NCBI GenBank assembly: GCA_017435505.1 | Contig: JAFSEZ010000042.1 | Location: 1 to 64,000 of the forward strand | Direction of reading: 5' to 3' | DNA length: 64,000 bases | DNA from: Akkermansia sp. | GTDB lineage: Bacteria; Verrucomicrobiota; Verrucomicrobiia; Verrucomicrobiales; Akkermansiaceae | Shown here: in pieces, positions 323 to 64,000 of the stretch | Position numbering within the stretch: position 1 is the stretch's first letter | How the letters are laid out: each line of letters opens with the position of its first letter | Notes under the pieces: model-generated | What the model was told of the DNA's origin: nothing | The model's input: only the letters and a program-made list of their open reading frames with translations | Databases searched by the model: none | Translations under genes and position numbers: made by a program

Positions 323-325
323 AAG

Positions 326-413
326 TTAACCTTGGGGTTTTGCAACACCTATGCCGAATTTAACCTTGGGGGTTTGCAACACTTCCTACAAATTTAACCT
401 TGGGTTTTTGCAA
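326..413 (+). repeat. Three 34-bp-phased direct repeats upstream of the ATPase gene
   Basis: Three near-identical units of the form TTAACCTTGGGGTTTTGCAA begin at 326, 360 and 394, exactly 34 bp apart. The third ends 7 bp before the -35 box at 421. Equal phasing of about three helical turns beside a promoter suggests binding sites for a regulator, possibly the ATPase itself. Only three units are present, with non-identical 11-14 bp spacers, so this is not a CRISPR. Confidence 0.8.
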
Positions 414-420
414 ATTGACA

Positions 421-449
421 TTGACAGTGAAAGAAAAAAGGAATATAAC
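421..449 (+). promoter_or_regulatory. Promoter of the DUF4143-type ATPase gene
   Basis: TTGACA (421-426) and TATAAC (444-449) are separated by 17 bp. Transcription should start near 456, about 15 nt before the ATG at 471. The three phased repeats end immediately upstream. Confidence 0.7.
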
Positions 450-470
450 TTCACTCATAGCGCCCCGGCC

Positions 471-1820
471 ATGAAAAGATACGCACTCGAAAAGCTTCAA
501 AAATGGAAAGAGCACCCCTTCCGCAAGCCCCTTTTGCTGATGGGTGCACGCCAAGTAGGCAAAACATGGCTTATGCAAGAATTCGGAAGGCTCCATTTTC
601 AAAAGGTGGCCTATATTCGCTTTGATAACAGCGAGCGAGCCAGACGCGCATTCAGCATTGATTTCGACATTCCAAGGCTCTTGGAAGCTATTTCCATCGA
701 AAGCAAATGTGCCATTGAGCCACAAAATACGCTCATCATTCTGGATGAAATTCAGGAATGCCCCGCAGCTCTCACTTCGCTGAAGTATTTCTGTGAAGAA
801 GCCCGTGAATACGCAATCATAGCAGCCGGCTCACTACTGGGAGTAGCAGACCACGTAGGCACCGGTTTCCCGGTAGGAAAGGTAGATCGACTGAATCTAT
901 ATCCTATGAACTTTTGCGAATTTCTCGAAGCCACGGACCAAGCACAGCTTGCAACACTACTGCAAAAACAGGATTGGAGCCTCATCAACCACTTTGAAGA
1001 TCTCTATATCCGCAACCTGCGCACTTATCTGTATGTTGGTGGCATGCCCGGTGTAGTACAAGTATATCATAAACTGCGAAATTATGATGAAGTACGCCAA
1101 GCTCAACTCAGTCTGCTGCGTGACTACCGCGAAGATTTCAGCAAACACGCCCCGACCGAAGCGCAACCTAAGCTGAACATGGTGTGGGACTCGGTTCCCC
1201 AGCAGCTGGCAAAGGAAAACAAACGCTTCGTCTACGGAGATGTATACTCAGGAGCACGCCGCAAAGCGCTGGAAATTCCCCTGAGATGGTTGCAGGATGC
1301 CGGGTTAATTCATCCTGTGCCCCGCATTAAGAAACCCCATCTTCCCATGTCCTCATACTGGGAAAACGGTATCAGCAAAGTATATTTCTTGGATGTTGGC
1401 CTGTTGTCCGCCGTCAGCGGGCTCGATGCCGGCACACTCTTGGATGGTAACGACATTTTCAGCGAATTCAAGGGGGCTCTTGCCGAGCAATTCGTGCAAC
1501 AAGAGCTGCGTTCCGCTTGTGAGCTTGCTCCCTGCTACTGGGCCAGCGAGGAAAAAAATGCCAAAGCAGAGATAGATTTTCTCTGCTCCATCCGTGGCCA
1601 TATCATACCCCTCGAAGTCAAAAGCGGAGACAACTTGCGAGCTCGAAGCCTACTGGTCTACTGTCAGCGATTCCAACCGCACTTTGCCATCCGCACCTCC
1701 CTGCACCCATACTCCACCAACGAATACGCCTTCAAAGAACCCCGGCACACCCACACCGCCACCCGCCTCATCGAACTGCCTCTCTACGCCATTTCGCAGC
1801 TTGCGGCGATTATTGGGTGA
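471..1820 (+). CDS. ATP-binding protein, AAA/DUF4143 type
   Basis: A 449-residue cytosolic protein of the AAA_14/DUF4143 architecture. The N-terminal ATPase shows Walker A GARQVGKT near residue 25 and a Walker B-like LIILDEIQE near residue 90. The C-terminal half carries the PD-(D/E)XK-like pattern of this family, with AEIDFLC and PLEVKSG near residues 365-385. The family is widespread and often mobile; its biochemical role is not settled. The ATG at 471 is chosen because the promoter at 421-449 would start transcription near 456, excluding the upstream in-frame ATG at 351, which lies inside the repeats. The gene stands alone. The three phased repeats and the broken barrel gene to its left suggest that it arrived as a small cassette. 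Confidence 0.85.
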   Translation: MKRYALEKLQKWKEHPFRKPLLLMGARQVGKTWLMQEFGRLHFQKVAYIRFDNSERARRAFSIDFDIPRLLEAISIESKCAIEPQNTLIILDEIQECPAALTSLKYFCEEAREYAIIAAGSLLGVADHVGTGFPVGKVDRLNLYPMNFCEFLEATDQAQLATLLQKQDWSLINHFEDLYIRNLRTYLYVGGMPGVVQVYHKLRNYDEVRQAQLSLLRDYREDFSKHAPTEAQPKLNMVWDSVPQQLAKENKRFVYGDVYSGARRKALEIPLRWLQDAGLIHPVPRIKKPHLPMSSYWENGISKVYFLDVGLLSAVSGLDAGTLLDGNDIFSEFKGALAEQFVQQELRSACELAPCYWASEEKNAKAEIDFLCSIRGHIIPLEVKSGDNLRARSLLVYCQRFQPHFAIRTSLHPYSTNEYAFKEPRHTHTATRLIELPLYAISQLAAIIG

Positions 1821-2652: not shown

Positions 2653-3777
2653 ATGGCTGGAGCGAGGCGAATAGAGAGTATTGATGTGCTGCGCGGAGTG
2701 GATATGTTCATGCTGACGGGCGGGGCAGCGCTCATCATGTCGGGGGCTAAGTTGTGGGGGGATAAGGAGACGGCAGCGGGAGTAGTGATGCAGCTGACAC
2801 ATGCGAATTGGGGGGAGGCGCTGACCTGCTGGGATATGGTGATGCCGCTGTTTATTTTCATTGTGGGAGCGAGCATGCCCTTTGCCTTTGCGAAATACCG
2901 AGAGCGCGGGGGCGAACGGTGGCAGTGGCCAACGCTGCTGCGAGTGATACGCCGCGTGGTGCTTCTTTTTGTACTGGGCATGGTGGTGCAAGGCCACTTG
3001 TGCTCGGCGGAGCCGGGGCGCATGGCTCTTTTTTGCAACACTCTGCAAGCAATAGCGGAGGGGTATTTGATAGCCGCCATTGTCCTGATGCTTGGCTGGG
3101 GTCTGAGGGGGCAAGTGTGCAGCATCTTGGGGTTGCTGGCGGGCTATTGGGCTCTGCTGCGCTTTGTGCCGTATGCGGGGAATGCAGGAGGACTTTTCCA
3201 ACCCGACAACAATTTGGCCATCTATATTGACCGCGCGTTGCAGGGTTCTTGGGCCGATGGTACACCGTACAGTTGGATTCTGACGTCTATGTCCTTTGGC
3301 GCACTCACGCTGATGGGATGCGCCGGGGGGGAGTTGATACGGCGATATTGCAGCATGCGCAGCGTTGCCATTCTGGTGGGGAGCGGCGCAGCATGCCTTG
3401 TGGCAGGTTGTTTGTTGGCCTACGACACGCCTATCATCAAGCACATCTATACCAGCAGCGCAGTGCTCTGGTGCGGAGGCTGGTGTTTGTTGTTGCTGGG
3501 TGTGTTTCACCTGCTGTTTGATTTTCGCACATGGTTGGCACCCTTGGGGTATCCGTTCAAAGTATTAGGGTGCAACGCCATGTTGGCATACCTGCTGGCA
3601 GAAATCCACGGATTGCAAGGGTATTCGCTGTGGAACAGCCTGGCCGCCCCATTGCTGGGAGGTACGGCGCGATTGTGCGGCGATGCATCTACCTTTGTGT
3701 ACCAGCTGCTGTCTTACATCTTGTTCTGGCTGGTCTTTTTCTTCCTGTACCAGCACCGCGCGTTCCTGCGCGTATAA
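2653..3777 (+). CDS. Inner-membrane acyltransferase, DUF5009 / HGSNAT-like (COG4299)
   Basis: A 374-residue polytopic protein. The N-terminus reads RIESIDVLRGVDMFML and is followed by MVMPLFIFIVGASMPFAFAK. This 'S-x-D-x-x-R-G' opening, then a hydrophobic segment and an acidic/His-rich loop, is characteristic of DUF5009 and of the heparan-alpha-glucosaminide N-acetyltransferase-like family. These move acetyl groups across the membrane onto sugars. Roughly ten hydrophobic helices can be counted, and there is no signal peptide. The start at 2653 fits the promoter at 2618-2646. The gene converges on the Enzyme I gene with an 8-bp gap, so it is probably monocistronic. The acceptor sugar cannot be read from the sequence; cell-wall or extracellular glycan modification is inference. 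Confidence 0.8.
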   Translation: MAGARRIESIDVLRGVDMFMLTGGAALIMSGAKLWGDKETAAGVVMQLTHANWGEALTCWDMVMPLFIFIVGASMPFAFAKYRERGGERWQWPTLLRVIRRVVLLFVLGMVVQGHLCSAEPGRMALFCNTLQAIAEGYLIAAIVLMLGWGLRGQVCSILGLLAGYWALLRFVPYAGNAGGLFQPDNNLAIYIDRALQGSWADGTPYSWILTSMSFGALTLMGCAGGELIRRYCSMRSVAILVGSGAACLVAGCLLAYDTPIIKHIYTSSAVLWCGGWCLLLLGVFHLLFDFRTWLAPLGYPFKVLGCNAMLAYLLAEIHGLQGYSLWNSLAAPLLGGTARLCGDASTFVYQLLSYILFWLVFFFLYQHRAFLRV

Positions 3778-63716: not shown

Positions 63717-64000
63717 ATGATGAAAAATGGATTTTTATGGGTATGGGCTCTTAGCGGCTTACTGATTCTCCCCCAAACTCAAGCTCAGCAGGGCTACGAT
63801 TTCACCGAGAACGAGGGCTACGATTTTTCGGAAAATGAAGGCTATGATTTTTCGGATGATGAAGAGGAAATAGCCGCGCAAAAAAAATCAGCGGATGATA
63901 AGCGTGCTTTACAATCTCTGCTCTACAATGGAGCGCAATATGCTCTTGCCTGCCGCAAGGCATACCAAGAAGAAATTGTATGGCCCGTTTCTGCATGCTG
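63717..64000 (+). CDS. Secreted protein with EGYDFSEN repeats (truncated by the window edge)
   Basis: Open from ATG 63717 (or 63720) to the end of the window, about 94 codons with no stop. The signal peptide is FLWVWALSGLLILPQTQAQ. The mature start has three acidic tandem units, QGYDFTEN, EGYDFSEN and EGYDFSDD, followed by an acidic/lysine stretch (EEEIAAQKKSADDKRALQ) and the start of a helical domain (LLYNGAQYALACRKAYQEEI). Acidic Asp/Glu/Tyr repeats next to a signal peptide may bind calcium or act as a flexible spacer. Not otherwise recognised; the rest is outside the window. Confidence 0.6.
   Translation, partial: MMKNGFLWVWALSGLLILPQTQAQQGYDFTENEGYDFSENEGYDFSDDEEEIAAQKKSADDKRALQSLLYNGAQYALACRKAYQEEIVWPVSAC

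Follow-up and report, generated by a model that had tools for sequence, protein, structure and literature searches.

Helically phased direct repeats that lie next to a promoter and are read by the product of that promoter's gene are familiar from the iterons of plasmid rep genes and from the DnaA boxes at dnaA, and self-regulating iterons are a known kind of arrangement. Nuclease-associated AAA+ proteins are likewise known, from McrBC, two proteins that cut modified DNA, and from TnsA/TnsC of Tn7-like elements, where an AAA+ regulator and a restriction-like nuclease come with repeats at the element ends.

By profile, the ATPase described here belongs to the same protein family as PDC-S01, a PADLOC phage defence candidate. 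Passages of a 2026 survey put PDC-S01 in fourth place among prokaryotic defence types by frequency and give validation as pending for most PDC candidates (PMC12988326), and an excerpt on rumen genomes names it as the most frequent single locus (PMC13356809). A Thermus study, in the part available, tables a DUF4143 ATPase among genes whose behaviour changes in the presence of plasmid DNA (PMC4406477), and the available text on IniR likens its ATPase domain to SSO1545 and reports binding to the iniBAC promoter (PMC5760070). In the portions available, the two surveys define PDC-S01 by its protein alone and mention no upstream array.

Array, promoter and ATPase in the Akkermansia window

The window, as we call the whole 64,000-nucleotide stretch of Akkermansia DNA that was analysed, contains on its + strand an array of three 34-bp direct units at 323..424, each consisting of a conserved core of about 20 bp and a looser 14-bp spacer. 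The cores, TTAACCTTGGGGTTTTGCAA (326..345), TTAACCTTGGGGGTTTGCAA (360..379) and TTAACCTTGGGTTTTTGCAA (394..413), were located by direct reading and pattern search. A sigma-70-like promoter, TTGACA-17-TATAAC at 421..449 of the same strand (-35 at 421-426, 17 bp, -10 at 444-449), was also read directly and is near-identical in the orthologues L093, L039 and L028. The array stops just 5' of the -35 element, which lies 7 bp from the end of the third core (413); an additional TTGACA copy is found at 415-420, and the ATG at 471 is 57 bp past the last core. An earlier note on this DNA had described units at 326, 360 and 394, phased at 34 bp and ending 7 bp before a promoter, and both the sequence and the shuffles described below confirm this layout.

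With up to 3 mismatches, the pattern TTAACCTTGGGNNTTTGCAA matches three times in the 64-kb window, always inside the array; shuffled windows gave a mean of 0.05 matches, and none of 100 shuffles reached three. Across the whole genome (57 contigs), matches with 0-1 mismatch are the three array units only, and four further matches with 2-3 mismatches each are all isolated. The array is thus unique in this genome, and the earlier note's concern that the repeats might be spread over the genome unrelated to the gene does not apply here. When all 46 window genes were scored for 30-36-bp tandem phasing, the ATPase alone reached at least 15 (32.0; runner-up 11.4). A CRISPR array was considered and rejected, since the cores measure 20 bp and the 14-bp spacers are themselves 73% alike. 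Elsewhere in the window, three 24-bp tandem repeats (GGCTACGATTTTTCGGAAAATGAA) at 63792-63864 are apparently coding, and a membrane-protein-like gene at 2653-3777 is weakly similar to DUF5009 (29.9 bits against a cut-off of 25). A short intergenic REP-like sequence (L044:2040-2900, query positions 726-824) occurs in many copies in several Akkermansia genomes.

The gene behind the array (471..1820, + strand) encodes a long-type AAA_14-DUF4143 ATPase of 449 aa, as assigned by Pfam, by the PADLOC profile PDLC04786 (PDC-S01) and by a structure model. Both Pfam domains, encoded on the + strand, scored above cut-off: AAA_14 (522..926; 94.0 bits), with the Walker A motif GARQVGKT and a Walker B DE at residues 92-93, and DUF4143 (1131..1628; 111.7 bits). 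The PDC-S01 profiles PDLC04786, 04788 and 04792 matched, the first with an E value of 2.5e-161 across residues 1-445. Matches to TnsC profiles were weak (E 0.002-0.009), no NCBIfam model scored above its cut-off with the window ATPase, and PHROGs and PDB sequence searches with it returned nothing useful. The AlphaFold2 model is confident (pLDDT 90.5), and its closest solved folds are the archaeal STAND ATPases PABY2304 (2qen; Z 17.0, rmsd 4.6, 266 aligned) and, second, SSO1545 (2fna; Z 15.4, rmsd 4.1, 269 aligned), followed by NLR/CED-4 proteins; the Foldseek list also includes DNA-bound Orc1/Cdc6. Folded alone (pLDDT 77.8), the C-terminal domain had its best fold match in McrC, a nuclease (Z 10.0, rmsd 2.5, 111 aligned), followed by Can2 and other PD-(D/E)XK nucleases, with a likeness to DdmD also seen; a family missing from these fold-match lists carries no weight as evidence. 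The PD-(D/E)XK-type residues E339, E367 and E382-x-K384 (1485..1622, + strand), placed by alignment and fold, are, together with the Walker residues, invariant in 19 of 19 aligned homologues. The protein is STAND/ORC-like AAA+ by fold and Walker A/B motifs and has a McrC-like PD-(D/E)XK nuclease domain by fold and catalytic-type residues, with DNA cleavage as its predicted activity.

These likenesses bear on a defence-related role, in which the array would be a licensing or self-marking platform that holds the ATPase inactive until invading DNA alters occupancy, whereupon the released protein would act as a nuclease. The strong match to PDC-S01, the STAND relatives CED-4 and NLR resistosomes, which are assembly switches, and the resemblance of the nuclease domain to the defence-acting McrC, Can2 and DdmD are in line with such a platform. 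However, PDC-S01 is itself an unvalidated candidate in the source passages available, no trigger or target is known, and most of the genes are seen solitary, so that we regard this role as distinctly improbable. One plasmid copy, from Glaesserella (L171, NZ_CP071488.1), adjoins a type III restriction-modification operon, whose own upstream region carries a weak 30-36-bp tandem signal (score 15.4).

Scanning the core against public genome contigs, one genome per species, yielded 19 matched stretches, seven of them from Akkermansia or Akkermansiaceae. In six of these seven, an ATPase again starts 57 bp past the last unit and the units are again 34 bp apart; the proteins, some of them only contig-end fragments, are 83-92% identical to that of the window. 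Identity between units of the six orthologous arrays is 94% in the core versus 73% in the spacer, and such conservation of cores while spacers drift is as expected of binding sites. The other 12 matches, single and in unrelated bacteria where the ATPase is absent, were taken as chance, as was a core match inside a coding gene (L013), presumably of the Sel1 type. The window's own genome encodes a second long-type DUF4143 ATPase (L012, G000:C7:21585-22919), 48% identical to the first and preceded by three units of a different sequence, AAACTCCTTTGTCTTTTGCCG, with a period of 33 bp.

Phased arrays across long-type DUF4143 ATPases

A protein search of 195 genomes of the family Akkermansiaceae gave matches in 29, and the DNA upstream of each homologue was screened for tandem phasing of any sequence at periods of 15-69. 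Most of the 63 homologues have a 32-34 bp period just upstream, with unit sequences that differ. A tandem score of at least 15 was reached upstream of 51 of the 63 copies versus 1 of 30 in the 330 nt downstream, the downstream control comprising the 30 of 63 copies for which such DNA was present. Phased arrays, some of them weak, were also found on plasmids of Segatella, Prevotella, Parabacteroides, Collinsella, Fusobacterium, Vibrio, Acinetobacter, Glaesserella, Criblamydia, Agathobacter, Vescimonas and Ruminococcus. They recur in phage-labelled faecal scaffolds, in IMG/VR contigs and in genomes of the class of genome G235, reached via a Saprospiraceae locus; with the Akkermansia genomes included, the combined sources span seven phyla.

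To arrive at a non-redundant set, copies with less than 150 nt of upstream DNA were removed and the remainder reduced to below 85% identity, which took 160 copies to 135. Among the 105 long-type representatives, 92 score above every one of 60 dinucleotide shuffles at periods of 31-35 bp, 13 fail this test, and 77 reach a tandem score of at least 15. By source, the test was passed by 35/38 from Akkermansiaceae, 23/26 from the G235 class, 14/16 from plasmids, 13/17 from IMG/VR, 3/3 from phage scaffolds and 4/5 from others; the named plasmid misses are Fusobacterium vincentii L177 and Phocaeicola L172, the latter with a pair spaced 66 bp in place of an array. In a comparison group made up of 30 further Walker-A rows, predominantly short-type DUF4143 but impure in that at least two rows (L192, L195) are other Walker-A frames at long-type loci, seven beat the shuffles and two score at least 15.

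The 31-35 range had been picked after seeing Akkermansia, and a separate Clostridia set was tested later by the same rule. From 30 loci taken among the 71 matches listed, three were excluded (no start found in L306, upstream DNA too short in L308 and L309). The array was present upstream of 16 of the remaining 27 genes, eight scoring at least 15, versus 2 of 26 downstream with none at that score; 11 of the 27 fail, which shows that the rule is strong but weaker there. A phased array at the gene's own promoter is a broad rule for long-type DUF4143 ATPases. The earlier note had mentioned similar repeats before related ATPase genes in other gut bacteria; they are real and more widespread than it supposed, being found before most long-type genes in seven phyla, and as an association its idea is largely borne out. 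The note's other refuting case, homologues devoid of phased repeats, does not hold either: what carries over between homologues is the phase of about 31-35 bp, and the units are lineage-specific. Short-type DUF4143 genes mostly have no 33-bp array, although a few have 22-bp ones: such repeats, phased at about two helical turns, lie upstream of L145, L143, L169 and L156, with five units of the ATTCCATAnnAGCCG type in L145.

Geometry was compared in 84 arrays. The period is 33 bp in 66 of them, 32 in 16 and 34 in two; the median position of the 3' end is -43.5 relative to the ATG, 77 arrays end within 80 nt of it, and a median of 2.6 units is seen per array. A spacing of about three DNA turns would place the units roughly on one side of the helix. 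Many genes of the G235 class have an array that extends across the promoter region as far as the start codon, and in L109 a long array of about 14 units (-590 to -144) lies apart from the promoter. The words AAAAGTG, AAAGTGT and AAATGTG are enriched about four-fold in upstream regions, and phased AAA[AG]TGT pairs occur in 24 of 105 of these regions against a shuffle mean of 0, which points to a common ancestral site. As the prevailing period is a multiple of three, the repeats could be thought to encode 11-aa repeats in a longer reading frame. However, 18 of the 84 arrays have periods of 32 or 34, and just six of the 66 with period 33 keep the gene's reading frame open, so coding tandem repeats were rejected. 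Chance repeats fare no better: scores of this kind are rare in shuffles, in the window as in the family-wide test, and a chance or coding origin retains practically no probability.

Unit sequence follows the protein. Unit similarity increases with protein identity (Mantel rho 0.192, reached in 0 of 1000 permutations), and its mean is 26.5 for proteins 70-85% identical and 6.2 for those below 28%, shuffled units scoring 5.4. We compared paralogues and orthologues in a set of 53 Akkermansia copies that come from 24 genomes. Pairs of paralogues from a single genome, on average 43.5% identical, had similar units in 3 of 57 cases; between genomes, similar units were seen in 51 of 64 pairs with at least 60% identity and in 38 of 605 pairs with 45-60%. 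These comparisons indicate that the unit is set by protein relatedness and not by the genome, as expected if the ATPase recognises it. The array could instead be read by a different protein, such as a nucleoid protein, or act as RNA, in either case with no relation to recognition by the ATPase. Simple linkage between adjacent stretches of DNA could contribute to the co-divergence of unit and protein, and might even produce it alone. Against this, units that differ between paralogues of one genome and match between orthologues of different genomes fit poorly with one host factor, and most arrays are sited upstream of the promoter or overlap it, which leaves a separate reader or an RNA role highly improbable. 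Two units typical of the family of L132 stand at -203 to -151 in L118, before a gene with another unit type, and are perhaps the relic of a lost cassette.

Apparent joint movement of array and gene

We aligned the DNA of 38 pairs whose proteins are at least 85% identical and for which 300 nt or more of sequence extends past the array. In 32 of these close pairs, which derive from about ten gene families and are therefore not independent, the 5' homology limit falls within 30 nt of the array start. The same holds for 28 of the 30 pairs scored as lacking a common flank, one of which, L039/L044, does have a common upstream flank. L042 and L044, which sit at unrelated loci, share 97.3% identity between -145 and a point some 40 nt beyond the stop; the right homology limit is variable, from inside the stop to about 45 nt beyond. 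That closely matching copies in unrelated surroundings resemble each other from their first repeat until roughly the stop codon implies that array and gene travel as one unit, and we read the two as a putative transferable cassette, which in the window would comprise array, promoter and gene (326..1820, + strand; limits by homology with near relatives elsewhere).

Arrays lacking a gene also exist: L016, L017 and L048 each retain one or two units and the start of a promoter. In L016 and L048, from two genomes, nearly the same junction follows past the -35 and is succeeded by a hairpin resembling a terminator and by what seems to be the tail of a PEP-CTERM gene in reverse orientation. Conversely, units can follow the gene, with three further ones directly after the stop in L066, two after the gene in L170 and one at the gene's end in L063. 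The L066 gene is bracketed by two arrays, the downstream one led by a stretch that also precedes the upstream one.

Both the 5' homology limit and the L042/L044 pair, as well as the solo arrays and the trailing units, are compatible with the array being the end or attachment site of a minimal mobile element, whose ATPase would bind it and whose PD-(D/E)XK domain would cut, so that the cassette is copied or inserted; solo arrays would then be leftovers after loss. However, neither a transposase nor a target duplication nor a fixed right end was identified at the cassettes compared. The flanks of L172, L181, L178 and L171 searched in plasmids gave no clean empty site, and two Akkermansia flanks searched in 76 genomes gave no clean junction; genomes free of the element exist (e.g. 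L260, flank identity 93%), but their intergenic DNA has diverged too far for a junction to be drawn. Ordinary recombination, through gain and loss, would leave the same picture, and the homology limits stem from few families. We consider a mobile element of this kind rather unlikely. Of the mobility signal proposed in the earlier note, the joint movement of array and gene gained support; with no clean empty site or target duplication found, a mobility function of the repeats themselves remains a candidate role.

A putative autoregulatory operator and its relatives

The repeats probably form an iteron array that serves the downstream ATPase as its cognate operator, self-regulated, specific to its protein and inherited with it as one cassette. 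A ladder of units at the gene's own promoter and their joint movement suggest that the protein recognises its own promoter, and the fold, like that of archaeal STAND ATPases and DNA-bound Orc1/Cdc6, supports an operator. Copies of the STAND/ORC-like ATPase would bind side by side on units about three helical turns apart and, placed next to or over their own promoter, would set their own level or assembled state. A unit specific to lineage and protein would allow paralogues to coexist in one cell free of cross-talk, and array and gene would be inherited and transferred as a single self-regulated cassette; a nuclease-bearing switch protein arriving by transfer would need control that travels with it. 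The array, its phasing and placement, its tie to this family in several phyla, its co-divergence with the protein and the cassette limits are read directly from the sequences; from them we infer that the encoded protein is the binder, that its binding is autoregulatory and of which sign, and that the nuclease acts; repression seems the likelier sign where the array covers the promoter up to the start codon. Against an operator speak the 13 of 105 representatives and 11 of 27 Clostridia genes that fail the array test, as well as the finding that no more than 19 of 84 units (about four expected) show the significant dyad symmetry often associated with dimeric repressors, and the L109 array, which ends about 144 nt before the ATG and apart from the promoter, indicates that a simple operator is not universal. 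A bolder form, which we hold to be decidedly unlikely, is a minimal self-propagating cassette whose ATPase-nuclease reads its own array for self-regulation and also as the marker of where the mobilised DNA ends, with lineages that co-diverge and are mutually blind.

If the repeats are indeed the operator, the cognate array beside most long-type genes is a predicted DNA ligand with a readable code, through which binding, regulation and specificity become testable together, and the many natural protein-site pairs could serve to study how DNA specificity evolves. The array can also be used as a sequence mark in cassette annotation, and it matters because PDC-S01, according to the source passages available, is abundant yet of unvalidated function (PMC12988326, PMC13356809). 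Near-universal arrays with lineage-specific units in this ATPase-nuclease family were not found in the open-access literature searched.

MalT and IniR are, in the text available, likewise STAND-type ATPases used as transcription regulators (PMC5760070), but they have other, LuxR-like DNA-binding domains, regulate other operons and have no nuclease domain. SSO1545 (2fna) and PABY2304 (2qen) are alike in their AAA+ and following helical domains, to which the window protein adds the PD-(D/E)XK domain. McrBC has the AAA+ motor and the PD-(D/E)XK nuclease in common, with McrC as the closest C-terminal fold, whereas here a single protein has its own promoter array; and in contrast to Tn7-like elements, no DDE transposase and no defined ends were identified for the cassette. 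Compared with rep iterons and DnaA boxes, the putative binder is an ATPase-nuclease and not a known replication initiator, and its units differ from lineage to lineage.
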